The notes beneath the pieces are model-generated. The model had not been told where the DNA came from. It did no database searches and saw only the letters and a list, made by a program, of their open reading frames with translations. 64,000 nt of DNA, from contig NC_081841.1 in the NCBI RefSeq assembly GCF_963259705.1, forward strand, positions 114,798,979-114,862,978. The letters run 5' to 3'. Origin of the DNA: Myotis daubentonii (Eukaryota; Chordata; Mammalia; Chiroptera; Vespertilionidae). The translations under genes and the position numbers were made by a program. Positions 13,713 to 37,250 of the stretch are shown here, piece by piece; the stretch's first letter is position 1, and each line of letters begins with the position of its first letter.

Positions 13713-13718
13713 GTAAAG

Positions 13719-14234: not shown

Positions 14235-16137
14235 AGAACCAAGATGGCTGCATAGGTTAACGCTGGAGTTTGCTGCTTTGAACAACTACTTCAAAAGTGA
14301 AACTAAAAAACGGAAAGGACATCACCCAGAACCACAGGAACGCTGGCTGAGTGGAAGTCCTACAACTAGGAGGAAAGAGAAACGCATACGGACACTCAGA
14401 GGAGGCGCAGTGCTGAAGTCAAATTCTGAGGTGCGGAGTGCGCGGAGCGGGCTGGCGGCGGAGGGTGCGGTTGTTGTTTTCAATCGGGAGGGAGTTGCAG
14501 ACTCTGAGCTCCAGATACAGGCGAGTCTTTAGGGACCCAGACTCAAACAGGAGAAGCGGGACTGTCTGGCTTTGGTCAGAGCGAGTGCAGCTTTCTCTCC
14601 GAGCTTTGCAGCGGGTGCTGGGACTCAGAGAGGCAGAGCCCCTAGGGACAGGACTGACAGCCGCCATAACTGCTCTCTCTGGCCCACCCTGTTGATCCTG
14701 TGCAACCTGCCCTACCCAAGCCCTGCACAGAGGCATTTGCCGGATAGCCTCAGGCAAAGGCTAGATTAGCACCTCCCTAGAGGACAGAAGTTCTCTCACT
14801 GCAGACACAGCTGATTCTCATAGCCACTTGGCCTGGAGGTCAAACCCTCCCTGGGATTAGCTACAACAATCAAGGCTTAACTATAAAACTGTGAACAAAG
14901 ACCACTAGGAGGTGCACCAAGGAAGCATAACAAAATGCGGAGACAAAGAAACAGGACAAAATTGTCAATGGAAGATATAGAGTTCAGAACCACACTTTTA
15001 AGGTCTCTCAAGAACTGTTTAGAAGCCGCCAATAAACTTAATGAGATCTACAAGAAAACTAATGAGACCCTCGATGTTATATTGGGGAACCAACTAGAAA
15101 TTAAGCATACACGGACTGAAATAACGAATATTATACAGACTCCCAACAGCAGACCAGAGGAGTGCAAGAATCAAGTCAATGATTTGAAATGTGAGGAAGC
15201 AAAAAACACCCAACTGGAAAAGCGAAATGAAAAAAGAATCCAAAAATGCAAGGATAGTGTAAGGAGCCTCTGGGACAGCTTCAAGCGCACCAACATCAGA
15301 ATTATAGGGGTGCCAGAAGATGAGAGAGAGCAAGATATTGAAAACCTATTTGAAGAAATAATGACAGAAAACTTCCCCCACCTGGTGAAAGAAATGGACT
15401 TACAGGTCCAAGAAGCGTGGAGAACCCCAAACAAAAGGAATCCAAAGAGGACCACACCAAGACACATCATACTTAAAATGCCAAGAGCAAAAGATAAAGA
15501 GAGAATCTTAAAAACAGCAAGAGAAAGTAACTCAATTACCTACAAGGCAATACCCATATGACTGTCAGCTGATTTCTCAACAGAAATTATGCAGGCCAGA
15601 AGGGAGTGGCAAGAAATATTCAAAGTGATGAATACCAAGAACCTACAACCAAGATTACTTTATCCAGCAAAGCTATCATTCAGAATTGAAGGTCAGATAA
15701 AGAGCTTCACAGATAAGGAAAAGCTAAAGGAGTTCATCACCACCAAACCAGGATTATATGAAATGCTGAAAGGTATCCTTTAAGAAGAGGAAGAGGAAGA
15801 AAAAGGTAAAGATACAAATTATGAACAACATATATGCATCTATCAACAAGTGAATCTAAGAATCAAGTGAATAAATAATCTGATGAACAGAATGAACTGG
15901 TGATTATAATAGAATCAGGGACATAGAAAGGGAATGGACTGACTCTTCTTGGGGGGGAAAGGGGTGTGGGAGATGTGGGAAGAGACTGGACAAAAATCGT
16001 GCACCTATGGATGAGGACAGTGGGTGGGGAGTGAGGGTGGAGGGTGGGGAGGGAACTGGGAGAAGGGGAGTTATGGCGGGGGAAAAAAGAGGAACAAATG
16101 TAATAATCTGAACAATAAAGTTTTAATTAAAAAAAAA
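14235..16137 (+). mobile_element. HAL1-2: ORF1-only 'half-L1' element
   Basis: A 1.9-kb element with the same architecture as HAL1-1: start AACCAAGATGGCTGCATAGG, G-rich leader, one ORF1 (14935-15783), about 350 bp of 3'UTR with GGGTGGGGAGTGAGGGTGG and a poly(A) tail (16128-16139) after AACAATAAAG. No ORF2 follows ORF1. Flanked by aagaatggatactatt at 14219-14234 and 16138-16153. It is less decayed than HAL1-1, so activity of this family extended to a later time. Movement would need ORF2p from an autonomous L1. Confidence 0.9.
14935..15783 (+). pseudogene. HAL1-2 ORF1, one internal stop
   Basis: From ATG at 14935 the frame runs 208 codons to TGA at 15559-15561, then continues in the same frame without another stop to TAA at 15781-15783, giving an expected length of about 282 residues. 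That is somewhat short of typical mammalian L1 ORF1p. Landmarks: coiled-coil-like N-terminus (residues 20-120), RRM with IRIIGVPEDEREQDIENLFEE (residues 121-141), RHIILKMPRAKDKERIL (residues about 177-193) and C-terminal YPAKLSFRIEG. The TGA sits where HAL1-1 has CAA, which suggests an ancestral CGA (Arg) changed by CpG decay in both copies, in different ways. Confidence 0.85.
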
Positions 16138-16154
16138 AAGAATGGATACTATTG
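16138..16154 (+). repeat. Target-site duplication, copy 2 (HAL1-2 right / L1-A left)
   Basis: aagaatggatactattg lies between the HAL1-2 poly(A) and the 5' end of L1-A and serves both insertions. Confidence 0.92.
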
Positions 16155-17375
16155 GAGAGAAAAATGGCGACCAGCAGGAAGGTAGGGAGGGAGAGAGTGT
16201 GAGAGCGCAAGGAAGTGATAGAGGAGTGTGTGGACGTGTTTGGTGTGTGTGTATGAGCTAGGGACAGTTAGATTCTGCAGGTCTTCTAAGGGGCTGCTAA
16301 ACCGGGCAATCTTAGGCGGCGGAGTCCCGCTCCCTGCATGAACACTCCTGGGTGGCCAGCACAGGCATAGCGACCACGCCATCTTGGGAAACAGAGCTGC
16401 TTGAGACTAGGATCCTGGCCTCAGCACCACCCAGTCTGATCTCAGATGCATACCAGGACCCTGCAGCCACTGGGGACAGAGACCTGTGACCACAGCTACA
16501 GACCTGCAGACAACAAAAGTTCAGAAATCCCCGTGGGAGATCAGTGAGTACCAGAGCCCATCCCCCCTTCCCGCAGGCTCGCAGGCAGCCCCAGAGTAAC
16601 TAACTAATAGCCCCACCCTTTGCCGGGGCCTCAGCACTGCAGGAACTTTGGCCTGGAAGTGTGTGACCACCTTGGAACTGATCCCGTGTAGGGCCTGGTT
16701 CAGGAATCCTGGGCTGGGAGCAATCACGCTAACACCAGGAACTGGTCCTACGCGCACTGCCAGCTTCAGAGCTGGAGCCCTGGGCTGGGAGAAAATGCGT
16801 GAACCCCAGGAACTGATGTTATGCTCACTGCCGGCTTTGGAGCCCTGGGCTGGGAGCAATCACACGAACACCGAACACCGGGAATTTGTCCCGCGTAGCA
16901 CAGGCCCAGGGACCCCGATTCTCTGGGCAGGAGGCAGCACCAAGCACCAGTGACTTGGCTGTGTTTCTTATCACCTGCGCCTGAGATCCTGATTCCCTGT
17001 GCATTCATACTAAGAGCCTGTGACTCCAATTCCTGGTGCAAGGGCACACAGGGAACCTGATTCTCAAGGCAAGGTTGCACGAGGCAACAGAGACTCTGAT
17101 ACTGGATTCTTGGGGAACTCTGACTCCTGGCACACGCTAGGGGGCTCTGGTTTTCAACACGCTCCAGGGGGGTCTCTGTTTCAGAACAGTGCAGGCAGGG
17201 TCCTGATTCTAAGGGCGCGTACGAGGCCACATTGAGTGCTGACAACACTGACTCTGAGAGAGCCTGGTTCCCACCAACCCACAACAACCCCACATCTTAT
17301 TGTCAGAACTCTTCAGTGACACTAGGGTGGTGGGAGGATCCCACTGCACACGGCCAGGGCCACGCAACTTGATGT

Positions 17376-18246
17376 TTGAACCAATGGGAGATAATCAGAA
17401 TGAAGAGACCACACAACACCCAGAGGAAAGACAATGAGGAGTCGCCAAGAAAGGAAATTAATGAAGTTGAAGCATGCAACATGACAGAAAAAGAATTCAG
17501 AATAATGGTTGTACAATTCATTCACCGGATGGATGAGAAAATCAACAACATATGCAAGAATCAGGAAGAAATGAAAAGTGATATAGCTACAATGAAAAAC
17601 ACCATGGAAAGTTTCAACAGCAGACTAGAAGAAGCAGAGGACCGAATTAGTGAGTTAGAAGATAAGGCAGAGAAACAAGGTCAATCTGAACAGCAACTGG
17701 AGAAAAAAATTAAAAAACAGGAGGAGAGCCTAAGGGAGCTTCGGGACAACATGAAATGAAGTAACATATGCATAATAGGGCTGCAAGAAGGACAAGAAGA
17801 GCAGCAAGGATTAGAAAATCTATTTGAAGAAATAATGTCAGAAAAATTCCCAGATATGGGGAAGAAAAAAGTTACAAAAGTACAGAGAGCCCCAAGCAAG
17901 ATGAATCCCAAAAGACCCACAAAAAGACACCTCATAATAACAATGGCAAATGTACAAGACAAAGAGAGAATCTTAAAGGCTGCAAGAGAGAAACAGAGTT
18001 ACCTACAAAGTATCCCCCGGAAGATTATCAAATGATTTCTCAACAGAAACACATCAGGCCCGAAAAGAATGGACAGAAATTAACAAAGTGATGCAAAGCA
18101 AAGGACTGAATCCAAGAATACTCTATGCAGCAAGGCTATCATTCAAAATTGAAGGGGAAATAAGAAGCTTCACAGACAAAAAAAGGCTAAGGGAGTTTAT
18201 CACCACCAAGACAACAATGCAAGAAATGCTAAAGGGACTGGTGTAA
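17376..18246 (+). pseudogene. L1-A ORF1 (broken)
   Basis: Starts ATG at 17376 (MNQWEIIRMKRPHNTQRK). Residues about 30-125 form a coiled coil (KNQEEMKSDIATMKNTMESF, SRLEEAEDRISELEDKAEKQ). A TGA at 17757-17759 stops the frame after residue 127. Downstream in other frames are ICIIGLQEGQEEQQGLENL-like RRM text, RHLIITMANVQDKERILKAA, and the end at MLKGLV with TAA at 18244-18246. A frameshift lies near 18020. The same TGA and frameshift occur in L1-B. Confidence 0.9.
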
Positions 18247-18295
18247 AAAGAAGAATTAAAAAGCCCAGAAAGAAAACAGCCACAAAAAAATAGAA

Positions 18296-21200
18296 ATGGC
18301 TACAAACAAGTACCTTGGAATAATAACTTTAAACGTAAATGGACTAAATGGTCCAATCAAAAGACATTGAGTGGCTGAATGGATAAAAAAACATGACCCA
18401 TATATTTGTGGTCTACAAGAGACCCACCTCATTAGAAGGGACTCACACAGACTGAAAGTGAAGGGATGGAAAAATATCTTTCAGGCAAATGGAAATGAAA
18501 AAAAAAAGCTGGGGTAGCAATACTTACATTGGACAAAACCGACCTCAAAGTGAAGCCTATAACAAAGGATAAGGAAGGCTACTTCATAATACTAAAGAGA
18601 TCAATACAACAAGAGGATATAATCCTGATAAACATATATGCACCCAATGCAGGAGTACCCACATACATAAGAAAACTCCTGGAAGAAATCAGGGGAGAGA
18701 TCGACAACAATACAATCATACTAGGGGACATTAATACACCACTGACATCACTGGATAAATCAGCTAGACAAAAACTCAGCAAAGAAAAAGCAATCCTAAA
18801 TGACTCACTAGATCAGATGGACTTAATTGACATCTTCAGAACACTTCACCCCAAAGCCACAAAATATACGTTCTTCTCAGGTGCTCACGGGACATCCTCA
18901 AAAATAGACCAATATTGAGTCACAAACAAAGTCTCCCCAAATTCAAGAAGATTGAAATCATACCAAGCACCTTCTCAGACCACAAGGGCATAAACTACAA
19001 TAAAACGAACACAAAATACTCAAACACTTGGAAGCTGAATAGCATGCTATTAAATATTGATTGGGTTAGCAATGAGATCAAAGAAGAAATTCAAAACATC
19101 CTGGAAACTAATGACAATGAAAACACAACAATCCAAACCTTTGGGACACAATGAAAGCAGTCCTGAGAGGGAAGTTTATAGCTCTACAGGCCTATCTCAA
19201 CAAACAAGAAAAAATGGTAGTAAATCATCTAAATCTACAGGTCAAAGAATTAGAAAGAGAGCAACAAGAAAAGTCCAGAGTGAGCAGAAGGAAGGAGATA
19301 ATAAAGATCAGAGCAGAAATAAATGACATAGAGACCAAAAAACCAATACAGAAAATCAATGAAACCAAGAGCTGGTTCTTTGAAAGGTTAAACATAATTG
19401 ACAATCCTCTGGCCAGGCTCACCAAGAAGCAAAGAGAGAGTACCCAAATAAACAAAATCAGAAATGATAGAGGCGAAATAAAAACAGACCCCACAGAAAT
19501 ACAAATGATTGTTAAAAAATACTATGGACAACTCTATTCCAACAAACTAGACAACCTGGAGGAAATGGACATATTACTAGAAAAATACAACATTCCAAAA
19601 CTTAATCAAGAAGAGTCTAAAAACCTTAATAGGCCAATAACTATGGAAGAAATTGAAGCAGTCATCAAAAAGCTTCCATCAAACAAAAGCCCAGGACCAG
19701 ACGGCTTCACAGGGGAGTTTTACCAAACATTCAAGGAAGAACTAAAATCTATCCGCCTCAGACTACTACAAACAATCCAAGAGGAAGGAAGACTTCCAAG
19801 CTCATTCTATGAAGCCAGCATCACCCTAATACCAAAACCAGGTAAAGACAACACAATGAAAGAGAATTACAGGCCCATATCCCTCATGAACATAGATGCC
19901 AAAATCCTCAACAAAATCCTAGCAAATCAGATCCAGCAGTACATCAAAAAGATCATACACCACAACCAAGTAGGATTTATCCCAGGGATGCAAGGATGGT
20001 ACAATATCCGCAAATCAATAAACGTGGTACATCACTTAAACAAATTGAAATTAAAAAAAAACACATAATCATATCAATTGATGCAGAAAAAGCGTTTGAC
20101 AAAATTCAACACCCATTTTCGATAAAAACTCTCAGTAAGGTGGGAGTAGAAGGATCATAACTCAACATAATAAAAGCCATATATGACAAACCAACAGCCA
20201 ACATCATACTGAATGGACAAAACTAACACCATTTCCCCTAAGAACAGGAACAAGACAGGGATGCCCACTCTCACCACTCCTGTTCAACATAGTACTGAAA
20301 GTATTTGCCATTGCAATTAGACAAGAAGAAGAAATAAAAGGCATCCAAATTGGAAAAGAAGTAAAACTGTCCTTATTTGCAGATGACATGATATTATACT
20401 TAAAAAACCCTAAAGACTCCATCAAAAAGCGATTAAACTTAATAAAAGAATTTGGCAATGTATTAGGATACAAAATTAATGCCAAGAAATCTATGGCATT
20501 TCTATACACCAATAGTGAATTTGCAGAAAGAGAGACTAAAAAAGCAATCCCAATTACCATCGCACCAAAAAAATTAAGCTACCTAGGAATAAATTTAACT
20601 AAAGAGGTAAAAGACCTCTACTCAGAAAACTACAGGACATTGAACAAAAAGAGATAGAGGAAGACATAAAGAGATGGAAGAACATACCATGTTCTTGGAT
20701 TGGTAGAATCCACATCATTAAAATGTCCATACTACCCAAAGCAATCTATAAATTCAGTGCACTTCCCATTAAAATACCAATGGCATATTTCACAGACCTA
20801 GAACGAACTCTCCAAAAATTCATCTGGAATGAAAAACGACCCCGAATAGCTGCAGCGATCCTGAGAAAGAACAAAGTAGGTGGGATCTCAATACCAGATA
20901 ACAAGCTGTATTACAAAGCAACTGTTCTCAAAACTGCCTGGTACTGACAAGAACAGACATATAGATCAATGGAATAGAATAGAGAGCCCAGAAATCAGCC
21001 CCAACCAAAACGCTCAATTAATATTTAACAAAGGAGGCAAGAACATACAATGGAGTCAAGATAGTCTCTTCAATAAATGGTGTTGGGAAAACTGGACAGA
21101 TACATGCAAGAAAATGAAACTAGACCACCAACTTACACCATACACAAAAATAAACTCAAAATGGATAGAGGACTGAAATATACGACGGGAAACCATAAAA

Positions 21201-22100
21201 ATACTAGAAGAATCCTAAGGCAACAAAATCTCAGACATATGCCGAAGCAATTCCTTCACACATACAGATCCTAGGGCATTGGAAACTAAAGAGAAAATAA
21301 ACAAATGGGACTACATCAAAATAAAAAGTTTCTGCACAGCAAAAGAAACCATCAACAAAACAACAAGAAAGCCCACTACATGGGAGAACATATTTGCCAA
21401 TGTTATCACTGATAAGGGTTTAACCTCCAACATTTATAGGGAACTCATACAACTCAACAAAAGGAAGATAAACAATCCAACCAAAAAATGGGCAAAGGAC
21501 CTAAATAGACACCTTTCAAAAGAGGACATGCAGAAAGCCAAGAGACATATGAAAACATGCTCAAAGTCGCTAATCATCTGAGAGATGCAAATCAAAACAA
21601 CAATGAGGTACCATCTCACACCTGTCAGAATGGCTATCATCAACAAATCAACAAACGACAAGTGCTGGAGAGGATGTGGAGAAAAAGGAACCCTCCTGCA
21701 CTGCTGGTGGGAATGCAGACTGGTGCAGCCACTATGGAAGACACTATGGAGTTTCCTCAAAAAACTAAAAATGCAACTCCCATTTGACCCTGTGATCCCA
21801 CTTCTAGGAATATATCCCAAGAAAACAGAAACACCAGTCAGAAAGGATACATGCACCCCTATGTTCATAGCAGCACAATTCACCATAGCTAAGATCTGGA
21901 AACAGCCTAAATGCCCATCTGGAGATGAATGGATTAGAAAACTGTGGTACATCTACATGATGGAATACTATGCTGCTGTAAAAAAGAAGGAACTCTTACC
22001 ATTTGCAATAGCATGGATGGAACTGGAGAGCATTATGCTAAGTGAAATAAGCCAGTCAATGAAGGAAAAATACCACATGATCTCACTCATTTATGGATAA
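18296..22100 (+). pseudogene. L1-A ORF2 (endonuclease / reverse transcriptase, broken)
   Basis: ATG at 18296 (MATNKYLGIITLNVNGLNG), about 50 bp after ORF1. Endonuclease: LQETHL near 18412 and ILGDINTPL near 18718. Reverse transcriptase: [20 protein letters not shown] near 19867-19926, [13 protein letters not shown] near 20250 and an intact FADDMILY near 20377. C-terminal Cys-rich motif [18 protein letters not shown] near 21663 (C-x3-C-x7-H-x4-C). Disabling changes include a TGA in the early endonuclease frame (near 18367, from CGA), TGA at 18916-18918, a frameshift near 20060 and one near 20222. L1-B shares the ones I checked. Confidence 0.92.
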
Positions 22101-22360
22101 TAAAGACCATTATAAACTTATGAACAAAAATAGATACAGAGGCAGAGCTGCCTCGAACAGATTGTCAAACTACAGCAGGAAGGCCGGGGAGGGTGGGAGG
22201 GCAGGAGGGGTTGGTGGTAAGAGATCAACCGAAGGACTTGTATGCATGCATATAAGCATAACCAATGGACATAAGACACTGGGGGGTAGGGGAGGCCAGG
22301 CGATTGTCATGGGCAGGGAAAGAAAAAGGAGACATATGTAATACTCTTTGTAATACTTTA

Positions 22361-22361
<1 letters not shown>

Positions 22362-22403
<42 letters not shown>
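22362..22403. repeat. (TA)n microsatellite at the L1-A 3' end
   Basis: About 21 TA units directly replace a normal poly(A) tail. L1-B has instead a tail of AATAAATAAATAAAT type. Confidence 0.95.
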
Positions 22404-22405
<2 letters not shown>

Positions 22406-22416
22406 CAAGTTAGGAG
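22406..22416 (+). repeat. Swapped target duplication at the L1-A 3' side
   Basis: caagttaggag. Its partner is caaattaggag, read on the minus strand at 34574-34564, the 5' flank of L1-B. It is also normal L1 ORF2 sequence at the point where L1-D stops and L1-C begins. Confidence 0.88.
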
Positions 22417-23333
22417 ACAAAAATCACATAAACATATCAGTCTATTGCGGGCGGGGGGGGGAAGCATTTGACAAAATCCAACACCCTTTCTTGGTAAAAA
22501 CCATCAGCAAATGCGAATAGGGGGTCATACCTCAACACAATAAAAGCCGTAAATGACAAACATACAGCCAACATCGTACTCAATGGGCAAAAACAAAAAT
22601 CTTTCCCTTAAGAACAGGAACAAGACAGGATGCCTGCTTTCACCATTCCTGTTCAACATAGTACTAGAAGTTCTAGCCATAGCAATCAGACAAGAAGAAG
22701 AAATAAAAGGCATCCAAATTGGAAAAGAAGTAAAATTGTCATTATTCGCAGATGCCATAATACTGTATATAGAAAATCCTAAAGACTCCATCAAAAAATT
22801 ATTATACTTAATAAATGAATTTGGCAATGTAGCAGGATATAAAATTAATACCAAGAAATATTTGGCATTTTTATACAACAATAGTGAATTTACAGCAAGA
22901 GAATTTACAAAAACAATCCCTTTTACCACTGCACAAAACAAAAATTAAGATAAACTCAACTAAGGAGGTAAAAGGCCTGTCCTCAGAAAACTACAGGACA
23001 CTGAATAAAAAGATAGAGGAAGACATAAACAGATGAAAGAATATACCGTTTTCATGGATTGGTAATATCAACATGATTAAAATGCCCTTACTACCCCAAG
23101 CAATCTATAGATTCAATGCCCTCCCCATTAAAATACCAACAGCATATTTCACAGAGCTAGGAAGAACTCTCCAAAAATTCATCTGTAATAAATAAAGACC
23201 ACAAGTAGCTGCAGTGATCCTGAGAAAGAAGAACAAAGTAGGAGGGACCTCAATACAAGATATCAAGATGTATTACAAAGCCACTGTACTCAATACTGCC
23301 TGGTACTGGCACAAGAACAGAAATATAGACCAA

Positions 23334-24098
23334 CTAAGGCCCGGTGCATGGAATTCATGCAGGGGATTGTCCCTCAGCCCAGCCTGCACCCTCTCCAATC
23401 TGGGACCCTTTGGGGGATGTCCGACTGCCTGTTTAAACAGGCAAGGCAATCAAACATCCTTCTCACAATCCAGGATTGCTGGCTTCCAACCACTCGCCTG
23501 CCTGCCTGATTGCCGCTAACCACTTCTGCCTGCCAAGCCTGATCACCCCCTAACCACTCCCATGCCAGCCTGATCGACGCCTAACTGCTCTCCTACAGGC
23601 CCGATTGTCCCTAACTGCCCTCCCCTGCTGGCCTTGTCGCCCCTAACTTTCTTCCCTTGTAGGCCTGCTCGCCCCTAACTGCCCTCCCTTGACAGCCTGG
23701 TCACCCATAACTTCCCTCTCCTGCTGGCCTAGTTGCCCCTAACTGTCCTTCCCTGCCGGCCTGGACACCTACAACTACCCTCCCCTGCTGGCCTGGTCCC
23801 CCGCAACTGCCCTCCTCTGCAGGCTTTGTCCCTCCCAACTACCTTCCCCTGCCAACCTGGTCTGTCCCAACTAACCTCCCCTGCAGACCTGGTTACCCCT
23901 AACTGTCCTCCAATGCAGGCCTGTTCACCCCCAACTGCCCTCCCTTACAGGCCTGGTCCCTCTCAGCTGCCCTCCCTTGTAGGCCTGATCACCAAGAACT
24001 TGCCCTCCCCTGCTGGCCATCTTGTGTCCACATGGGGGCAGCCACCTTGTGTGTTGGAGTGATGGTAAATTTGCATATTACTCTTTTATTACATAGGA
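23334..24098 (-). mobile_element. Non-autonomous Helitron inserted in L1-C
   Basis: Reading the minus strand: 5' TCCTATGTAATAAAAGAG, 3' hairpin GCATGAATTCCATGC then ACCGGGCCTTAG. The host is L1 ORF2, where the uninterrupted sequence in L1-A reads ATCAATGGAATAG. Here the insertion falls exactly between A (23333) and T (24099). The middle (23500-24050) is a pyrimidine-rich tandem array of about 50-bp units containing CCC(C)TAACTGCCCTCCC(C)TGC(T/A)GGCCTG. Confidence 0.93.
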
Positions 24099-25474
24099 TG
24101 GAATAGAATAGAGAACCCTGAAATCGACCCAAACCATTCTGCTCAATTAATACTTGACAAAGGAGTTAAGAACATAAAATGGAGTAAAAACAGTCTCTTC
24201 AATAAATGGCGCTGGGAAATTTGGTCAGATACATGCAAAAAAATGAAACTAGACCACCAACTTACATCATACACAAAAATAAACTCAAAATGGATAAAGG
24301 ACTTAAATGTAAGAGGACAAACCATAAAAATATTAGAGGAATCCACAGGCAGCAAGATCTCAGAAATATGCTGAAGCAATATCTTCACCAATACAGCTCC
24401 AAGGGCAATGGAAACTAAAGGGAAAATAAACAACTGGGACTACATCAAAATAAAAAGCTTCTGCACACCAAAAGAAACCATCAACAAAACAACAAGAAAG
24501 CCCACTGCATGGGAGAACATATTTGCCAATGATATCTCTGGTAAGGGTTTAATCACCAACATTTACAGGAAACTCATGCAACTTAACAAAAGGAAGACAA
24601 ACAACCCAATCAAAAAATGGGCAACAAACCTAAATAGACACATTTTGAAAGAAGACATACAGAAGGCTGAGAGACATATGAAAACAAGCTCAAAGTCACT
24701 AATAATCCAAGAGATGCAAATCAAAACAACAATGCACCATCTCATACCTGTCAGAATGGTTATCATCAACAAATCAACAAATCACAAGTGCTGGCGAGGA
24801 AGCAGAGAAAAAGGAACCCTTGTGCACTGCTAGTGGGATGCAGACTGGTGCAGCCTCTGTGGAGAACAGTATGGAATTTCCTCCAAAAACTGAAAAAGGA
24901 ACTCCCATTTGACCCAAAGATTCCACTTCTGGGAATATATTCCAAAAAAACAGAAACACCATTCAAAAGGATATATGCACCCCTATGTTCATAGTAGCAC
25001 AATTTACAATAGCTAAGATTTGAAAACAGCCTAAGTGCCCATCAGCAAATGAGTGGATTAAAAAACTTTGGCACATCTACACAATGGAATACTATGCTGC
25101 TATAAAAAGGAAGGAACTCCTACAATTTACAACAGCATGGATGGAGCTGGAGAGCATTATGCTAAGAGAAATAAGTCAGTCAGAGGAAGATAATTATTCA
25201 TAATCTCACTCATCTGTGGATTATAATGAACAACATAAACCGATGAACAAAAACAGATCCAGAGGCAGAGAAGCATCGATCAGATGCTCAAACCTCAGAG
25301 GGGAGTTAGGGGAGGGAGGGAGAGATCAACCAAAGGACTTTTATGCATGCATATAAGCATAAGCGATGGATGCAGACAACACGGGGTGAGGGTGCGGGCA
25401 GAACTGGGGGGATGAGGGGACAATGGGGGGATAAAGAAACATTTGTAATACCTTAATCAATAAAAATTAATAAA

Positions 25475-26117
25475 TCCTGTCTAATAAAAGAGAAACATGG
25501 TAATTAGCCGTACCTCCGCTACCCTTCCCATTGGCTAATCAGGGCGATATGCAAATTAACTGTCAGCCAAAATGGTGGCCGGCAGCCAGGCAGCTTGAAG
25601 CGAACATGAGGCTTGCTTGCTTCAGTGACAGAGGACTCGAACGTTCCCCGCCTGCCGCTGCCGGCCTCTGAGCTTGCAGTTTGACACATTGTTACAAATA
25701 TAGAAGCTAAACAAAACCCCAGAAACCTGCTTTCAGCCAGCTGGGATCTCAGAGCTGGAGTTGAAACAGTGTTTCGATTATAGAACCCAAACAAACCAGA
25801 TACCTGCTTTCAGCAGCCGAGGCCTAAGAGCTGGAGCCAAGCCTCAGAGCTAAAGCTGGCCCAGAATTAAAAAAGAGAGAAAAAGGAGCAGTTGGGAGCC
25901 TCAGTCACCCGCCAGCCTGAAAAGAGCCCTCAGCCCCTCACCCAGACTGGCCAGGCACCCCAGTGGGGACTCCCACCATGAAGAGTGTGTGACCAGCTGC
26001 AAATAGCCATCATCCTCTCATCCAGGCTGGCCAGGCACCCCAGTGGGGACCCCCACCCTGATCCAGGACACCCTTCAGGGCAAAACAGCCGGCACCCACC
26101 CACGCACCAGGCCTCTG
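25475..26117 (+). mobile_element. Helitron, unit 1 of a head-to-tail trimer
   Basis: Starts TCCTGTCTAATAAAAGAG after host A 25474, in the tail of L1-C, and ends GCACCAGGCCTCTG. The next Helitron starts with the next base. The 5' part (CTAATCAGGGCGATATGC) is of the same subfamily type as the units ending at 39929 and 61196. Confidence 0.88.
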
Positions 26118-26981
26118 TCCTATATAGTAAAAGGGTAATATGCCTCCCAGCACAGGGATTAGTGGAGCCGCGAGGCCTCCCAGCACCGAGATCAGCATGA
26201 CAGGGGGCAGCGCCCAAACCCCCTGATTGCCCTTTGGCTCTGTGTGTGACAGGGGGCGGGGCCACAACCTCCCTATCCACCCTGCTCTGTTCGTGACAGG
26301 GGAAGGCACCCCAACCCCATGATCAGCCGTGCTCTGTGCCTGATAGGGAGGAGCTCACCAACCCCCTGATCGCCCTGCAGCTCTGTGTGTGACAGTTGTG
26401 GTGCCCTAAACCCCTGATCGGCCCTGCTCTGTGGGTGATAGAGGGCGGCGCCCCAACCTCCCCGCACCGGCCCTGCTCTGTTTGTGATGGGGTAGAGCCA
26501 TAACCTCCCCATTGGCCTTGCCCTGAGTGTGACAGGGTGCGGCGCCCCAACCCCCTGATCCGCCCTGCTCTGTGTGTGATGGGGGCGGTGCCCCAACTCC
26601 TCTATCGGCCCTACTCTGTGAGTGACAGAGGGGAGCTCCTCAACCCCCTGATCAGCCCTGCCTTGAGTGTGACAGGGGACGGTGCCCAAGCCCCCAATCG
26701 GCCCTACCCTGAGCGTGACTGAGGGTGGCATCGCAACCTCCCGATCTTCCCTGCTCTGTGCATGACAGGGGGCGGTGCCCCAACTCCCCAATCAGCCTTG
26801 CTCTGAGCCTGACCAGGGGCTGCACCTAGGGATTGGGCCTGCCCTCTGCCACCAGGGAGCGGGCCTAAGTCAGCAGGTCGTTATCTCCTGAGGGGTCCCA
26901 GACTCCGAGAGGGCACAGGCCGGGCTGAGGGACCTCCCCATCCCCCCCAAGTGCACAAATTTTTGTGCACCAGGCCTCTAG
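26118..26981 (+). mobile_element. Helitron, unit 2 of the trimer
   Basis: Starts TCCTATATAGTAAAAGGG and ends with hairpin GTGCACAAATTTTTGTGCAC then CAGGCCTCTAG. The centre (about 26180-26810) is a minisatellite-like array of about 58-60 bp units built on 'CTCTGTGTGTGACAGGGGGCGGTGCCCCAAC'-type text, about ten copies, which produces long minus-strand frames with no biological meaning. Confidence 0.88.
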
Positions 26982-27431
26982 TAAATATATAAAATATAAG
27001 CATAATATGCAAATTGACTAGACTGAGGAACGGCCAGTCGCTATAATGAGCACTGACCAGTTGCTATAGTGCTTCCTCCTGACCACAGGCCCCAAGCAAC
27101 AGGTCAGAGCCTGCTGGGCAAACTCTGGGCACCTACCCCAGCCAGCAGGCTCTTATCACCTGATGGTGAATGGGGAACTGGGGGTGGGTGACGGCATACC
27201 CATGTAGCACCAGGCCAAGGCAGGTGTGAGCAGGGCCCTGATCGTTCCACCACTTGCCCCACACACAGAGGGTGACCGGAGGTGGTGGCAGCAGGGGCGG
27301 TGTGGGGGAGTGGAGGGCTGCAGCAGCAGGGGGGCTGGGCCAGCTACCAGCAGTCTTTTCAGATCAACCCTGATTCCAGGCCAGGCCTAGGGACCCTACC
27401 CGTGCACAAATTTTGTGTGCTGGGCCTCTAG
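26982..27431 (+). mobile_element. Helitron, unit 3 of the trimer
   Basis: Decayed 5' end (AAATATATAAAATATAAGC) at once after the CTAG of unit 2, then AATATGCAAATTGACTAGAC, and a 3' hairpin GTGCACAAATTTTGTGTGC with GGGCCTCTAG before host T 27432. Shorter and more decayed than units 1 and 2. Confidence 0.82.
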
Positions 27432-27955
27432 TATAAAGAATAAAAATTTATATTAAGGTGAGGTAAAATTTCTGATAAGTAAGACCAGAAATAATTCACT
27501 ACCACAGATTTGCACTATCAGACACACTAAATAAATTAATTTGAAGGAACAAAAGATATATATAAAAAAGGAAAAGAACTAGAAGTTGAAAGCATGTAGA
27601 GAATATGTATATAAATATATGTCCATGAATCTATATTGTATACACTTTATTATCTTATTTTTTAAAAGTATGAAACTATTTAAAATAATATAGGTATTAT
27701 TTTAATTATATATATTAATTAATATATATTACATTATTGTGGAAAATTTCTCACATTGTTTATCATGAATAGGTATTGTATTTTATCAAATGACTTTCCT
27801 GCATCAATTGATATACTTATCTGTTGCTTTAATCTAGACTGTAAATATGATAGAATATAGTAGTTGACTTTCAAAATTGAACTCATTTTCCATTCTTGCA
27901 AAAAATGCCATTTCCTAATGGAATATTACTCTTTAATACACTGTTATATTCTAAT
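27432..27955. other. Old sequence with ancient L1 scraps
   Basis: About 27480-27590 resembles the end of an old L1 ORF1 on the plus strand (AATAATTCACTACCACAGA). About 27760-27860 resembles old ORF2 on the minus strand (TTTTATCAAATGACTTTCCTGCATCAATTG). Nothing else recognised. Confidence 0.5.
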
Positions 27956-28304
27956 AGTAGCCCGGTGCACAAAATTTGTGCACATTAAAAGGGAATTAAT
28001 TAGCAGAAATATTTTAATATTGCTATTTGCCCTTTCTCTATAATAGAAGTGTGAGAGATGAAAGGAAATTAGTAAAATGTATATGAAATAATATATAAAT
28101 TTATTAATAAATAGTAACAAAAGGATATAAAAGCAACAGAGGCATGATATAAAAACGACAAAAACATGAAATGAAAACAACAAAAACATGATATAAAAAC
28201 AACAGTGATGCAAACAATGACTGATAAAGTGATTCATCTTATTCTAATATCTCCCTGTACACCACATTAAGAGTGAAAACACTTTCAGAGTGCTGGATTA
28301 ATTT
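27956..28304 (-). mobile_element. HeliBat 3' end (partner of 13719-14234)
   Basis: The minus strand ends TTTTAATGTGCACAAATTTTGTGCACCGGGCTACTAT: a palindromic 3' hairpin and Helitron terminus with a decayed CTAG. Read on the minus strand from 28304, the sequence carries on the helicase frame that stops at 14234 (RMDTI then EINPALES), followed by a 3'UTR-like AT-rich region with repeated ACATGATATAAAAACAAC units (28140-28205 on plus). It is now separated from its 5' part by the inversion. Confidence 0.8.
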
Positions 28305-28321
28305 CAATAGTACCCATTCTT
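28305..28321 (-). repeat. Target-site duplication, copy 3, at the L1-B 3' side
   Basis: Minus strand reads aagaatgggtactattg, one mismatch from the L1-A 5' flank at 16138-16154. Confidence 0.9.
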
Positions 28322-28642
28322 TTTTTTGTTGTTGTTTATTGTGCTATTATTTTTTATTTATTTATTTATTTTTATTGCTTAAAATATTACAAAGAGTATT
28401 ACATATGTCTCCTTCCCCCCCCCCCCCCACGCTTGACAATTGCCTGGCCTCCCCTACCCCCCAGTGTCTTATGTCCATTGGTTATGCTTATATGCATGCA
28501 TACAAGTCCTTCGGTTGATCTCTTACCACCAACCCCTCCTGCCCTCCCACCCTCCCCGGCCTTCCTGCTGTAGTTTGACAATCTGTTCGAGGCAGCTCTG
28601 CCTCTGTATCTATTTTTGTTCATAAGTTTATAATGGTCTTTA

Positions 28643-31600
28643 TTATCCATAAATGAGTGAGATCATGTGGTATTTTTCCTTCATTGACTGGCTTATTTCA
28701 CTTAGCATAATGCTCTCCAGTTCCATCCATGCTATTGCAAATGGTAAGAGTTCCTTCTTTTTTACAGCAGCATAGTATTCCATCATGTAGATGTACCACA
28801 GTTTTCTAATCCATTCATCTCCAGATGGGCATTTAGGCTGTTTCCAGATCTTAGCTATGGTGAATTGTGCTGCTATGAACATAGGGGTGCATGTATCCTT
28901 TCTGACTGGTGTTTCTGTTTTCTTGGGATATATTCCTAGAAGTGGGATCACAGGGTCAAATGGGAGTTGCATTTTTAGTTTTTTGAGGAAACTCCATAGT
29001 GTCTTCCATAGTGGCTGCACCAGTCTGCATTCCCACCAGCAGTGCAGGAGGGTTCCTTTTTCTCCACATCCTCTCCAGCACTTGTCGTTTGTTGATTTGT
29101 TGATGATAGCCATTCTGACAGGTGTGAGATGGTACCTCATTGTTGTTTTGATTTGCATCTCTCAGATGATTAGCGACTTTGAGCATGTTTTCATATGTCT
29201 CTTGGCTTTCTGCATGTCCTCTTTTGAAAGGTGTCTATTTAGGTCCTTTGCCCATTTTTTGGTTGGATTGTTTATCTTCCTTTTGTTGAGTTGTATGAGT
29301 TCCCTATAAATGTTGGAGGTTAAACCCTTATCAGTGATAACATTGGCAAATATGTTCTCCCATGTAGTGGGCTTTCTTGTTGTTTTGTTGATGGTTTCTT
29401 TTGCTGTGCAGAAACTTTTTATTTTGATGTAGTCCCATTTGTTTATTTTCTCTTTAGTTTCCAATGCCCTAGGATCTGTATGTGTGAAGGAATTGCTTCG
29501 GCATATGTCTGAGATTTTGTTGCCTTAGGATTCTTCTAGTATTTTTATGGTTTCCCGTCGTATATTTCAGTCCTCTATCCATTTTGAGTTTATTTTTGTG
29601 TATGGTGTAAGTTGGTGGTCTAGTTTCATTTTCTTGCATGTATCTGTCCAGTTTTCCCAACACCATTTATTGAAGAGACTATCTTGACTCCATTGAATGT
29701 TCTTGCCTCCTTTGTTAAATATTAATTGAGCGTTTTGGTTGGGGCTGATTTCTGGGCTCTCTATTCTATTCCATTGATCTATATGTCTGTTCTTGTCAGT
29801 ACCAGGCAGTTTTGAGAACAGTTGCTTTGTAATACAGCTTGTTATCTGGTATTGAGATCCCACCTACTTTGTTCTTTCTCAGGATCGCTGCAGCTATTCG
29901 GGGTCGTTTTTCATTCCAGATGAATTTTTGGAGAGTTCGTTCTAGGTCTGTGAAATATGCCATTGGTATTTTAATGGGAAGTGCACTGAATTTATAGATT
30001 GCTTTGGGTAGTATGGACATTTTAATGATGTGGATTCTACCAATCCAAGAACATGGTATGTTCTTCCATCTCTTTATGTCTTCCTCTATCTCTTTTTGTT
30101 CAATGTCCTGTAGTTTTCTGAGTAGAGGTCTTTTACCTCTTTAGTTAAATTTATTCCTAGGTAGCTTAATTTTTTTGGTGCGATGGTAATTGGGATTGCT
30201 TTTTTAGTCTCTCTTTCTGCAAATTCACTATTGGTGTATAGAAATGCCATAGATTTCTTGGCATTAATTTTGTATCCTAATACATTGCCAAATTCTTTTA
30301 TTAAGTTTAATCGCTTTTTGATGGAGTCTTTAGGGTTTTTTAAGTATAATATCATGTCATCTGCAAATAAGGACAGTTTTACTTCTTCTTTTCCAATTTG
30401 GATGCCTTTTATTTCTTCTTCTTGTCTAATTGCAATGGCAAATACTTTCAGTACTATGTTGAACAGGAGTGGTGAGAGTGGGCATCCCTGTCTTGTTCCT
30501 GTTCTTAGGGGAAATGGTGTTAGTTTTGTCCATTCAGTATGATGTTGGCTGTTGGTTTGTCATATATGGCTTTTATTATGTTGAGTTATGATCCTTCTAC
30601 TCCCACCTTACTGAGAGTTTTTATCGAAAATGGGTGTTGAATTTTGTCAAACGCCTTTTCTGCATCAATTGATATGACTATGTGTTTTTTTTCTTTCAAT
30701 TTGTTTATGTGATGTATCACATTTATTGATTAGCGGATATTGTACCATCCTTGCATCCCTGGGATAAATCCTACTTGGTTGTGGTGTATGATCTTTCTGA
30801 TGTACTGCTGGATCCGATTTGCTAAGATCTTGTTGAGGATTTTGGCATCTGTGTTCGTGAGGGATATGGGCCTGTAATTCTCTTTCATTGTGTTGTCTTT
30901 ACCTGGTTTTGGTATTAGGGTGATGCTGGCTTCATAGAATGAGCTTGGAAGTCTTCCTTCCTCTTGGATTGTTTGTAGTAGTCTGAGGAGGATAGGTTTT
31001 AGTTCTTCCTTGAATGTTTGGTAAAACTCCCCTGTGAAGCCGTCTGGTCCTGGGCTTTTGTTTGATGGAAGCTTTTTGATGACTGCTTCAATTTATTCCA
31101 TAGTTATTGGCCTATTGAGATTTTTAAACTCTTCCTGATTAAGTTTTGGAATGTTGTATTTTTCTAGTAATATGTCCATTTCCTCCAGGTTGTCTAGTTT
31201 GTTGGAATAGAGTTGTCCATAGTATTTTTTAACAATCATTTGTATTTCTGTGGGGTCTGTTGTTATTTCGCCTCTATCATTTCTGATTTTGTTTATTTGG
31301 GTCCTCTCTCTTTGTTTCTTGGTGAGCCTGCCTAGACGTTTTTCAATTGTATTTAACCTTTCAAAGAACCAGCTCTTGGTTTCATTGATTTTCTGTATTG
31401 TTTTTTTGGTCTCTATGTCATTTATTTCTGTTCTAATCTTTATTATCTCCTTCCTTCTGCTCACTATGGGCTTTTCTTGTTGCTCTCTTTCTAATTCTTT
31501 GATCTGTAGATTTAGATGATTTACTACCATTTTTTCTTGTTTGTTGAGATAGGCCTGTAGAACTATAAACTTCCCTCTCAGGACTGCTTTCATTGTGTCC

Positions 31601-32449
31601 CAAAGGTTTTGGATTGATGTGTTTTCATTGTCAGTAGTTTCCAGGGTGTTTTTAATTTCTTCTTTGATCTCATTGCTAACCCAATCAATATTTAATAGCA
31701 TGCTATTCAGCTTCCAAGTGTTTGAGTATTTTGTGTTCGTTTTATTGTAGTTTATGCCCTTGTGGTCTGAGAAGGTGCTTGGTATGATTTCAATCTTCTT
31801 GAATTTGGGGAGACTTTGTTTGTGACTCAATATTGGTCTATTTTTGAGGATGTCCCGTGAGCACCTGAGAAGAACGTATATTTTGTGGCTTTGGGGTGAA
31901 GTGTTCTGAAGATGTCAATTAAGTCCATCTGATCTAGTGAGTCATTTAGGATTGCTTTTTCTTTGCTGAGTTTTTGTCTAGCTGATTTATCCAGTGATGT
32001 CAGTGGTGTATTAATGTCCCCTAGTATGATTGTATTGTTGTCGATCTCTCCCCTGATTTCTTCCAGGAGTTTTCTTATGTATGTGGGTACTCCTGCATTG
32101 GGTGCATATATGTTTATCAGGATTATATCCTCTTGTTGTATTGATCTCTTTAGTATTATGAAGTAGCCTTCCTTATCCTTTGTTATAGGCTTCACTTTGA
32201 GGTCGGTTTTGTCCAATGTAAGTATTGCTACCCCAGCTTTTTTTTTTCATTTCCATTTGCCTGAAAGATATTTTTCCATCCCTTCACTTTCAGTCTGTGT
32301 GAGTCCCTTCTAATGAGGTGGGTCTCTTGTAGACCACAAATATATGGGTCATGTTTTTTTATCCATTCAGCCACTCAATGTCTTTTGATTGGACCATTTA
32401 GTCCATTTACGTTTAAAGTTATTATTCCAAGGTACTTGTTTGTAGCCAT
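28643..32449 (-). pseudogene. L1-B ORF2 (broken)
   Basis: Starts ATG at 32449 (minus). The endonuclease, reverse transcriptase (intact FADDMILY near 30365) and C-terminal [18 protein letters not shown] motif are all visible. It shares with L1-A the early TGA (AGACATTGAGTGG), the TGA after KIDQY, and the frameshift around AAACTAACACC. It also differs: FNTIEKRLGRL-type text where L1-A has IDNPLARL. Confidence 0.92.
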
Positions 32450-32498
32450 TTCTATTTTTTTGTGTCTGTTTTCTTTCTGGGCTTTTTATTTCTTCTTT

Positions 32499-33369
32499 TT
32501 ACACCAGTCCCTTTAGCTTTTCTTGCATTGCTGGCTTGGTGGTGATAAACTCCCTTAGCCTTTTTTTGTCTGTGAAGCTTCTTATTTCCCCTTCAATTTT
32601 GAATGATAGCCTTGCTGCATAGAGTATTCTTGGATTCAGTCCTTTGCTTTGCATCACTTTGTTAATTTCTGTCCATTCTTTTCGGGCCTGATGTGTTTCT
32701 GTTGAGAAATCATTTGATAATCTTCCGGGGGATACTTTGTAGGTAACTCTGTTTCTCTCTTGCAGCCTTTAAGATTCTCTCTTTGTCTTGTACATTTGCC
32801 ATTGTTATTATGAGGTGTCTTTTTGTGGGTCTTTTGGGATTCATCTTGCTTGGGGCTCTCTGTACTTTTGTAACTTTTTTCTTCCCCATATCTGGGAATT
32901 TTTCTGACATTATTTCTTCAAATAGATTTTTTAATCCTTGCTGCTCTTCTTGTCCTTCTTGCAGCCCTATTATGCATATGTTACTTCATTTCATGTTGTC
33001 CCGAAGCTCCCTTAGGCTCTCCTCCTGTTTTTTAATTTTTTTCTCCAGTTGCTGTTCAGATTGACCTTGTTTCTCTGCCTTATCTTCTAACTCACTAATT
33101 CAGTCCTCTGCTTCTTCTAGTCTGCTGTTGAAACTTTCCATGGTGTTTTTCATTGTAGCTATATCACTTTTCATTTCTTCCTGATTCTTGCATATGTTGT
33201 TGATTTTCTCATCCATCCGGTGAATGAATTGTACAACCATTATTCTGAATTCTTTTTCTGTCATGTTGCATGCTTCAACTTCATTAATTTCCTTTCTTGG
33301 CGACTCCTCATTGTCTTTCCTCTGGGTGTTGTGTGGTCTCTTCATTCTGATTATCTCCCATTGGTTCAA
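32499..33369 (-). pseudogene. L1-B ORF1 (broken)
   Basis: ATG at 33369 (minus), MNQWEIIRMKRPH. Same coiled coil as L1-A, with an extra stop after SRLEEAED (33100-33102) where L1-A has Arg (CGA to TGA). The later TGA and the frameshift before the C-terminal domain are shared with L1-A. Confidence 0.9.
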
Positions 33370-34563
33370 ACATCGAGTTTAGTGGGCCTGGGCCATGTGC
33401 AGTGGGAGGCTTCCACCACCCTAGTGTCACTGAAGAGCTCTGATACTAAGATGTGTGGTTGTTGTGGATTGGTGGGAACCAGGCTCGCTCAGAGTCAGTG
33501 TTGCCAGCTCTCAATGTGGCTTCGTGCGCGCCCTTAGAATCAGGACCCTGCCTGAACTGTTCTGAAACAGAGACCCCCCTGGAGTGTTTGAAAATCAGAG
33601 CCCCCTAGCGTGTGCCAGTAGAGTTCCCCAGAATCTAGTATCAGATTCTCTGTTGCTTTGCTCGATCTCGCCTTGAGAATCAGGTTCCCTGTGTGCCCTT
33701 GCACCAGGAATTGGAGTCACTGGCTCTTAGTATGAATGCACAGGGAATCAGGATCTCTGGTGCAGGTGATAAGAAACACAGTCAAGTCACTGGTGCTTGG
33801 TGCTGCCTCCTGCCCAGAGAATCCTGGTCCCTGGGCCTCTGCTATGCAGGACAAATTCCTGGTTTTCGCACGATTGCTCCCAGCTCAGGGCTTCGAATCC
33901 GGCAGTGTGAGCAAGACCAGTTCCAGGTGTTTGTGCCCAGGCCAGGACTCCTGGAGCAGGTAGTGTGTGTCGGACCAGTTACAGGTGTTTGAGCATTTGC
34001 TCCCAGCCCAGGACTCCTGAACCCTGCCCTACGTGGGATTAGTTCCAAGGTGCTCCAGCACTTCCAGGCTAAAGTTCCTGTGGCACTTAGGCCCCGGCAA
34101 AGGGTGGGTCTATCAGTTACTATAGCGCTGCCCATGAGACTGCGGGAAGGGGGAATGGGCTCTATTACTCACGGATCTGCCATGGGGATTTCTGAAATTT
34201 TGGTGTCTGCAGGTCTGTGGCTGTGGTCACAGGTCTCTGTCCCCAGTGGCTGCAGGGTCCTGGTATGCTTCTGAGATCAGACTGGGTAGTGCTGAGGCAA
34301 GGATCCTAGTCTCAAGCAGCTCTTTTTCCCAAGATGGCATGGTTGCTGTGCCTGTGCTTGCCGCCTAGGAGTGTCCACGCAGGGAGCAGTACTCCGCTGC
34401 CTAAGACTGCCCAGTTTAGCAGCCCCTTAGAAGACTTGCAGAATCTAACTGTCCCTAGCTCATACACACACACCACACACGTCCACACACTCCTCTATCA
34501 CTTCCTTGCACTCTCACACTCTCTCCCTCCCTACCTTCCTGCTGGTCGCCATTTTCTTTCTCT

Positions 34564-34574
34564 CTCCTAATTTG
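34564..34574 (-). repeat. Swapped target duplication at the L1-B 5' side
   Basis: Minus strand reads caaattaggag. It matches the L1-A 3' flank (22406-22416). Confidence 0.88.
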
Positions 34575-36330
34575 TTTATGTGATGTATCATGTTTATTGA
34601 TTTGCAGATATTGTACCAGCCCTTCATCCTTGTAATAAATCCCAGTGGGTGTATGATCTTTCTAATGTAATGCTGGATCCGGTTTGCTATAATTTTGTTG
34701 AGGATTTTGTCATCTATGTTCATGAGGGATATTGGCCTATAATTCTCTTTCTTTTTAGTGTCTTTATCTGGTTTTGGATTAGGGTAATGCTGGCTTCATA
34801 GAAAGAGCTTGGAAGTATGCCTACCTCTTGAATTTTTTGGAATAGTCTGAGAATTTTTTTGTTTTAGTTCTTTGAATGTTCAGTAAAACTCCCCTATGAA
34901 GCCATCTGGTCCAGGGCTTTTATTTGCTTGAAGCTTCTTGTTTACTGTTTCAACTTCATCAGTAGTTATCGGCCTATTCAAATTTTTTTATTTTTCCTGA
35001 TTGAGTTTTAGAAGCTTGTATTTTTCTAGGAATGTGTCCATTTCAACGAGGTTGTCCAGTTTTTTGGAGTTGAGTTGTTCATAGTATTTTTTTTTTTAAA
35101 TCCTTTGTATTTCTGTGGGATTGGTTGTTACTTCACCTCTTTCATTTCTGATTTTGTTTATTTGAGTCCTCTCTCTTTGTTTCTTGGTGCGCCTGACTAT
35201 CAATCTTGTTTATCCTTTCAAAGAATCAGCTCCTGGTTTCATTGATCTTTTGTATTTTTTTTTGTCTCTATGTTGTTTATTTCTGCTCTGATCTTTATTA
35301 TTTCCTCCCTTCTGGATATTGAGGGTTTTTTTTTTTTTGTTCTCTTTCTAATTCTTTAAGTTGCAAGGTTAGTAGTTCATTACCAGTTTTTTTTTTGGTT
35401 TTTGTGATAGGACTGTAGAGCTATGAACTTGCCTCTCAGGACTGCTTTTATCATGTTCCATAGATTTTGGATTGCTGTGTTTTCATTGTCATTTGTTTCC
35501 AGGATGCTTTCGATTTCTTCTTTGATCACTTTGGTAACCCAATAATTGTTTAATAGCATGCTATTTAGCCTCCAAGTGTGTATTTTTTCATTGTTTTTAT
35601 TGTAGTTGATTTCGATTTCTAGTTTTATGCCATTGTGATCTGGAAGATTCTCGTTATGATTTCTATCCTTTTGAATTTAAAGAGACTTTTCCTGTGCCCT
35701 AACATGTAGTCTATCTTTGAAAATGTCCAATGGTACTGGAGAAGAATGTATATTCTCTAGCTTTGAGGTGAAATATTCTGAAGATGTCAATTAAGTCCAC
35801 CTGATCTAGTGAGTCATTTAGGATTGCTGTTTCTTTGCTGAATTTTTTGTTTAGGGGATTTATCCAGTGGTGTAAGTGGGGTATTAAAGCCCCCTACTCT
35901 GACTGTATTGCTATCTATATCTCCCTTGATATCTTCCAGAAGTTGTTTTATGTATTTGGGTGTTTCTGCATTGTGTGCATATATGTTTACCAGAGTCATA
36001 CCTTCTTGTTGAATTGCTCCCTTTAGTATTATGTATTGGACTTCCTAATCTCTTATTGTGGTCTTCATTCTGAGGTATATTTTGTCAGATATAAGTATTG
36101 CAACCCTAGCTTTTTTCTCATTTCCATTTGCCTGAAAAATTTTTTCCATCTCTTCGCTCTCAGTCTGTGTGAATCTTTTGTTCTGAGGTGGGTCTCTTGC
36201 AGACAGCAAATATATGGGCCATGTTTTCATATCCATTCAGCTACCTTTTGTCTTTTGATTGGTGCATTTAATCAATTTATGTTTAATGTTATTATTTATA
36301 AGTACTTATTTGTTGTCATTTTTATTCTTA
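34575..36330 (-). pseudogene. L1-D ORF2, N-terminal part
   Basis: Decayed endonuclease and reverse-transcriptase text. For example ITLVNIYAHNAETPKYIKQL near 36000 and [11 protein letters not shown] near 34723. Many stops; it is truncated by L1-B, not by its own end. Confidence 0.82.
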
Positions 36331-36389
36331 ATGTTTGTGTTTCTTCTTGCCTTTCTGTTTCTTCTTTTTACAGCAGTCCCTTTATGATT

Positions 36390-37250
36390 TCTTGCATTGC
36401 TATCTTGGTAGTAATAAACTTTCTTAGCCCTTTTTTGTCTGTGAAGCTCCTGATTCCACCTTCAATTTTGAATGATAGTTTTGCTGGATATAGTATTCTC
36501 GAATTCAGTCCCTTGTTTTGCATCACTTTGTATATTTAATTCAATTCCCTTCTGACCTGGTGTGTTTCTGTAGAGAAACCAGTTGATATTCTAATAGGAG
36601 CTCCCTTGTAGGTAACTTTTTGTCTCTATCTGGCAGCCTTTAAGATTCTTACTTTGTTGCTGGTGTTTGCCAATTTAATTATGATGTGTCTTGGTGCTGG
36701 TCTTTTGGGGTTTATCTTATTTGGGACTCTATGTGCTTCTTGGACTTGCATAGTTTTTTTCTTGCCAATATCAGGGAAGTTTTCTGTCATTATTTATTCA
36801 AACAGGTTTTCTATTCCTTGCTTCTCTTCCTCTCCTTCTGGTACCCCTATTATGCAAATGTTGTTTTGTTTTGTATTGTCCCAAAGCTCCCTTAGGTTCT
36901 CCTCTTGCTTTTTAAGTTTTTTCCTGTTGTTCCTGTCTTTGTGTTTATTTTCCTACCTTGTCTTCTAATTCGCTGATGCGGTCCTCAGACTCTGGTAGTC
37001 CACTGTTTAAGTCTTCCATTGTGTTCTTTATTGCAGCTATGTCATTCTTCATTTACTCTTGGTTCCTTTTGATGTTGGTGACATTCTCATTCAGCTCCTT
37101 GCAATTCTCATTGAGTTGTGTGTATTTGTCATTGAGTTGTGTGTATTTGTCATCCGGCCATTTGAGCATCCTTATAACCATTACTCTGAATTCTTTCTCT
37201 GAAAAGTTGCTTGTCTCAGTTTCATTTAACTCCCATTCTGGTGATCTTCT
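36390..37250 (-). pseudogene. L1-D ORF1 remnant
   Basis: Minus-strand coiled-coil and RNA-binding text in several frames (for example EELEDHISELE-like text around 36960-37200 and RHIIIKLANTSNK-like text near 36660-36720). A 20-bp stretch, GAGTTGTGTGTATTTGTCAT, is tandemly repeated at about 37112-37151. Confidence 0.7.

Follow-up and report, generated by a model that had tools for sequence, protein, structure and literature searches.

Inversions produced by recombination between L1 retrotransposons are an already known kind of rearrangement. Lee et al. 2008 (PMC2603318) described L1 recombination-mediated inversions in primates and used mismatched target-site duplications to infer the ancestral state. 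In humans, eight LINE-1-mediated inversions with a median length of 5,487 bp have been reported, none of them with added complexity at both breakpoints (PMC9675761). In addition, nonallelic conversion between transposable element copies shows raised rates between Alu copies within 10 kb of each other (PMC6598467), and recurrent human inversions involve inverted repeats able to flip repeatedly (PMC3961182). In this work, we analyse a stretch of 64,000 nucleotides of Myotis daubentonii (contig NC_081841.1; hereafter the window, 64 kb), in which two full-length L1s of opposite orientation, L1-A (16155..22405, plus strand) and L1-B (28322..34563, minus strand), are 96.25% identical over a 6,244-column alignment and bracket a segment of 5.9 kb. 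This segment was probably flipped when the inverted L1s recombined ectopically, with a single net crossover and with tracts of conversion; to this reading we give a probability of roughly 0.84.

Opposite homologous L1s at the breakpoints and swapped duplications, by which L1 recombination-mediated inversions are recognized, are both found at this locus. As in the primate cases, the opposite L1s span the breakpoints, would have become chimeric, and have own duplications that no longer match. Unlike those cases, ours lies in a bat, two split host elements also give its ancestral order, and conversion tracts are visible, 'gene conversion' being a term with no occurrence in the available main text of the primate study. 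The length of 5.9 kb and the simple breakpoints within L1s resemble the human inversions, which were called by comparing individuals, whereas this one is known from one assembly. The study of nonallelic gene conversion, reportedly by Fawcett and Innan in 2019, shares with our case that nearby copies are kept alike; here, however, the tracts are long (2.2 kb) and the copies are dead inverted L1s that appear also to have crossed over. Inverted repeats able to flip repeatedly are common to the recurrent human inversions and this locus, although recurrence at the A/B pair is only predicted. What is added here is the double proof from host elements, the conversion tracts and the bat genome; among the matches listed, no title reports an L1-L1 inversion with conversion tracts in bats, which is no proof of absence.

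Swapped duplications and split host elements

The flanks of the two L1s match crosswise. The 5' flank of L1-A (16138-16154, plus strand, AAGAATGGATACTATTG) agrees with the 3' flank of L1-B (28321-28305, minus strand, AAGAATGGGTACTATTG) at 16/17 positions, with one mismatch; we call this pair target-site duplication 1. Target-site duplication 2 consists of the 5' flank of L1-B (34574-34564, minus strand, CAAATTAGGAG) and the 3' flank of L1-A (22406-22416, plus strand, CAAGTTAGGAG), which agree at 10/11 positions, again with one mismatch. Within each element no match between its own flanks was found, the local score being 5 for L1-A and 6 for L1-B. On re-checking, the coordinates and sequences given for both L1s and their flanks in a preliminary description of the window were correct, as was its claim that the match is crosswise and not within each element. 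At 3,000 random places in the window the score had a median of 5 and a 99th percentile of 10 and 9, compared with 20 and 12 for the crosswise flanks; the highest null scores, 25 and 20, lie above these, presumably as some random places overlapped the flanks themselves. Assuming equal base use and a fixed position, the chance of such matches is 52/4^17 (about 3e-9) and 34/4^11 (about 8e-6). Duplication 2 is short (11 bases), which is a caveat on the flank evidence, and the best local match of its flanks (score 12) is the 12-mer ATCACATAAACA, not the duplication itself. Since this 12-mer is present on both sides of the duplication-2 point in the host L1, weight here falls on where the flanks align and, most of all, on that host being continuous.

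This host is an older L1 into which L1-B was inserted. The preliminary description had treated its pieces as two elements, L1-C and L1-D. They are instead the 3' half (22417..25349, plus strand) and the 5' half (34564..37093, minus strand, interrupted by L1-B) of one older L1, split by L1-B and the inversion, the former being the collinear continuation of the latter. Both pieces belong to ORF2; compared with L1-A by BLAST, the 5' one extends as far as position 20046 and the 3' one begins at 20090, and the interval 20046-20090 is filled by the flanks at the two junctions. The joined halves align through the junction with three L1s of the window (L1-A, L1-B and the L1 at 1473) and through the duplication-2 join with 7/7 genome copies (L002-L008, fetched by match to the 3' half), in all of which the 40 bases of joined sequence spanning the junction have 40 bases of the locus opposite them. 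In 4/7 copies a single alignment covers at least 2,306 of the 2,417 bases, while L002 is covered by two alignments from base 203, and L006 and L008 match on the 5' side over just 188 and 270 bases. It is this alignment through the join that shows L1-C and L1-D to be one element. The 3' half also holds, by eye, a Helitron-like insert of about 760 bases (about 23334-24097), and just 3' of the junction a G-rich run (22448-22461) replaces the usual ORF2 sequence.

Duplication 1 lies in a second host, a HeliBat-like Helitron, the name being carried over from the preliminary description. Its helicase-side half (13714..14238, plus strand), left of L1-A, contains a PIF1-like helicase piece (PF05970 in 13721-13999, E 3.5e-11) and matches Helitron copies that also carry the 28305-27941 piece. 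That piece, the 3' half (27941..28304, minus strand), shows homology starting at the last duplication base of 28321-28305 (minus strand), and among 39 other loci scored the matches to it begin at query base 17 (38 loci) or 18 (one). The helicase piece lies upstream and on the same strand in 17/19 fetched Helitron copies; in the other two (L056 and L060) no left match was found within 1.5 kb upstream. Between the two pieces there are 669-681 bases in 11/19 copies, 899-1422 in five and about 626 in one (estimated, from a shorter match). As the pieces adjoin in 0/17 copies, the window copy has lost about 0.67 kb at the left join. GAAAT reads at both edges of this gap in the copy L050, and the edges could fit a microhomology deletion on this 5-base repeat; the window has no other match to L050 that would hold the lost piece. 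Despite the gap, the order and strand of the pieces indicate that the right half is inverted relative to the helicase-side half. Continuity of host sequence is found solely in the uninverted order, for the host L1 (7/7) as for the Helitron (17/19, with about 0.67 kb missing). The flip of 5.9 kb between L1-A and L1-B, proposed in the preliminary description, is thus borne out by the swapped duplications together with an older L1 and a Helitron that are both continuous across the inversion junctions. Vespertilionids are stated to be the sole mammals invaded by rolling-circle transposons in a vespertilionid karyotype paper (PMC13003292), in the available text of which neither 'breakpoint' nor 'helitron' occurs.

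The helicase-side half hosts, besides L1-A, a HAL1-like (L1 ORF1-type) element (14235..16137, plus strand, start approximate), for which the preliminary description supplied the name HAL1-2. Its open reading frame at 14935-15561 matches the L1 RBD-like domain PF02994, and its 3' end, before 16138, is A-rich. The 16-mer AAGAATGGATACTATT flanks the element on both sides (14219 and 16138). The copy at 14219..14234 (plus strand, 16/16) is the element's 5' duplication, and the motif of duplication 1 therefore arose first with the HAL1-like insertion and was then duplicated again by L1-A; the copy at 16138..16154 stands both at the 3' end of the HAL1-like element and at the 5' end of L1-A. L1-A is inserted directly at the 3' duplication of that element, and the two duplications end within about one base of each other. 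Apparently, the same nick site was used twice, by the HAL1-like element and then by L1-A.

Uneven divergence between L1-A and L1-B

Both L1s are full length with broken open frames, the longest being 305 aa on the plus strand in L1-A (with RVT_1 in 19151-20065) and 245 aa on the minus strand in L1-B. Along their alignment, differences fall as 138/1186 (5' end), 2/840, 5/70, 0/811, 41/998, 1/2210 and 28/103 (tail). Tract 1 (17371..19091; L1-B partner 33374-31654) comprises 17371-18210 and 18281-19091 around a 70-base unconverted patch (18211-18280), and tract 2 (20092..22301; partner 30654-28442) has, besides its one substitution, one 3-base indel at 20355. Together the three intervals hold 3 substitutions in 3,861 sites (0.08%), compared with 4.1% in the block between the tracts (19092..20091; partner 31653-30655) and 11.6% at the 5' end. 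A and B are identical without a break for up to 1,254 bases; when the same number of differing columns was placed at random 20,000 times, no such run was longer than 319. At 2.4e-9 substitutions per site and year, the tracts date roughly to 0-0.5 My as point estimates (upper limits 0.5-1.8) and the middle block to 8.6 My (6.2-11.5).

Could this likeness come from the same young L1 source, with no conversion? We give this almost no credence. It would find some footing in the middle block, where A and B share six private states and B is by a narrow margin the copy nearest to A (4.1%, with 4.2% for the next best and a median of 4.7%), and in other pairs of the family that are also close in single blocks. 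Yet such a source predicts even divergence, whereas the tracts stand at 0.08% and the block between them at 4.1%, and on this unevenness a fresh common source for the two L1s was rejected. Moreover, tract 2 is less divergent than the insertion duplications themselves (2/28 sites differ; Fisher p 4e-4). Nor is L1-A a special relative of L1-B at the 5' end: the 39 other loci scored with the L1-B 5' end reach at most 88%, L1-A is absent from the 40 scored, and A and B when aligned there are 88% identical.

The whole-genome searches with single blocks scored the best 40 first-look candidates each, so a close copy missed at that first look is possible. For tract 2, the main match of the 38 other scored loci has 94-96% identity (13 loci lack more than 70 bases of the query start); for tract 1, the 38 others reach 84-95%, the full-length ones at most 94%; for the middle block, L1-B is at 96% and the 38 others at 95-96%. 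Judged by identity, none of the 38 + 38 other loci scored is another copy with the tract states. No third locus at 99-100% appeared among the loci scored with the tracts or the middle block, and hence no second haplotype of the locus was seen in the assembly.

To count private states, we used as relatives 34 loci picked as best matches to L1-A (6 from the tract 2 search and 28 from the middle-block search), leaving out L009, L010, L017 and L018, which are the window's own L1-A and L1-B. Each column had to be covered by at least six relatives; six of the 34 cover most of 21592-22301. States present in A and B and in 0/34 relatives number 35 (17592-19091), 19 (20092-21591) and 10 (21592-22301), a total of 64, against 2 A-only and 3 B-only in the tracts; in the middle block, 6 are shared, 13 A-only and 17 B-only. 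Over the three blocks of 17592-21591, A and B share 60 private states, compared with at most 3 (median 0) in 528 relative pairs, which are those of 561 with more than 2,000 comparable columns. A looser rule with 12/34 relatives usable points in the same direction (shared/A-only/B-only 48/2/4, 10/22/20 and 33/0/1). A and B also differ by at least 3.9% from every relative in the three blocks; the block at the 3' end has 60 comparable sites and six relatives. Separate copies from an active source would each carry their own private changes, as happens in the middle block. That the private changes are identical in the tracts thus indicates copying, and L1-A and L1-B would have exchanged sequence after insertion, recently.

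Probable conversion and crossover, and a control pair

The swapped duplications, the two host elements split across the junctions and the conversion tracts are all legible in the assembled sequence, and a course of events can be proposed from them. Two full-length L1s would have been inserted independently in opposite orientation, L1-A beside the HAL1-like element inside the Helitron and L1-B inside the older L1. Much later, once each had accrued private changes (1.3-1.7% in the unconverted block), they would have paired by homology across a 5.9-kb loop. Double-strand break repair may then have copied at least two long tracts between them, and one crossover (or an odd number) would have flipped the intervening 5.9 kb. 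The crossover presumably fell inside one homogenised tract, and conversion and crossover were probably the same or related events. The unconverted patch (18211-18280) and the middle block point either to one event that was patchy or to more than one.

Several observations weigh against this course of events. Each duplication has one mismatch, and the Helitron gap of about 0.67 kb at the left join (14238 / 28305) needs a separate deletion. The crossover point cannot be placed within the L1s. The 70-base patch was set aside post hoc, and with it tract 1 has 7/1721 differences. Low divergence is no proof by itself, given that some relative pairs are as close as 0.68% (tract 1), 0.20% (middle) and 1.21% (tract 2) in single blocks. 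Six middle-block states are private to A and B, which may be somewhat closer than average, or the middle block may have been converted earlier. Finally, the inversion is read from one assembly.

This last point opens the way to an assembly error, in which the assembler passed from one inverted repeat to the other, turning the segment round, and polishing made parts of A and B alike. Inverted near-identical repeats are a classic cause of such errors, an erroneous flip gives the same swapped flanks, and tract 2 holds a single substitution in 2.2 kb. We nonetheless think an error unlikely. The window is without N, and the sequence to which it belongs measures 222.6 Mb in an assembly of 121 pieces and 2.13 Gb; this suggests long reads, even if the pieces may be scaffolds. 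Given the 138 differences at the 5' end and the 41 in the middle block, reads longer than about 2.4 kb tie the middle block to the 3' flank over the length of tract 2 and should prevent such an error, and tract 1 is spanned by reads longer than about 1.8 kb. Furthermore, wholesale collapse of the consensus is not expected to end at sharp edges. The arrangement is presumably present in the animal and not confined to the assembly.

A second inverted pair of the same L1 family, on C23 (99519700-99526100, L067, and 99533500-99540000, L068, with about 7.7 kb between them), serves as a control. It was picked from the tract 2 search results and not by survey (n=1). One member is full length and the other is a last third; both are flanked by perfect duplications of their own, of 14 and 15 bases, and there is no crosswise flank match. 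Net orientation there is accordingly unchanged, and the flank test behaves properly on an uninverted pair. Between the C23 copies 25/2,058 sites differ, whereas their divergence from L1-A is about 4%; at the 3' end the two are identical over 724 bases. Their private states (both/first/second) are 3/0/1 (20239-20600), 4/5/1 (20601-21591) and 8/0/0 (21592-22301). Conversion without inversion is possible at this pair, on much weaker evidence than for A/B, since in tract 2 a divergence as low as 1.21% also occurs among some relatives elsewhere that are not this pair.

If conversion can leave its sign without inversion, as in the C23 pair, the two may occur apart. Template switching, or breakage followed by end joining, close to the L1s might then have made the A/B inversion, with gene conversion as a separate matter; the microhomology-type deletion near the left junction would suit this. 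Such an origin is very improbable, given that both junctions lie exactly at or inside full-length L1s with the duplications directly outside, an arrangement that breaks at unrelated points would not keep.

Ectopic recombination between L1-A and L1-B may, on the other hand, be ongoing. Tentatively, and with more doubt than belief, we raise the idea that A/B is a live flip-flop, in which dead L1s are still exchanging, both orientations segregate and the segment has changed direction more than once. The genome's pairs of inverted L1s would then perhaps be a class of small palindromes under concerted evolution, with the C23 pair as a second, uninverted case. A tract divergence of 0.08% may be under the ordinary allelic diversity in such bats.

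Meaning for vesper bat genomes

Elsewhere in the window, diverged repeats occupy 7533-9025, many with a spacing of about 163-171 bases, and 2/5 frames from the window had no Pfam match.

The locus lets insertion order, conversion tracts and crossover be read together in a vesper bat. It indicates that long-dead L1s can still serve as recombination substrates, so that an L1 pair is not safe just by being old. Conversion tracts of this kind bias L1 dating and subfamily trees, and they can mislead short-read assembly. The locus also leads to a prediction: young-looking tracts between old inverted L1s would mark segments that are likely to be polymorphic in orientation.

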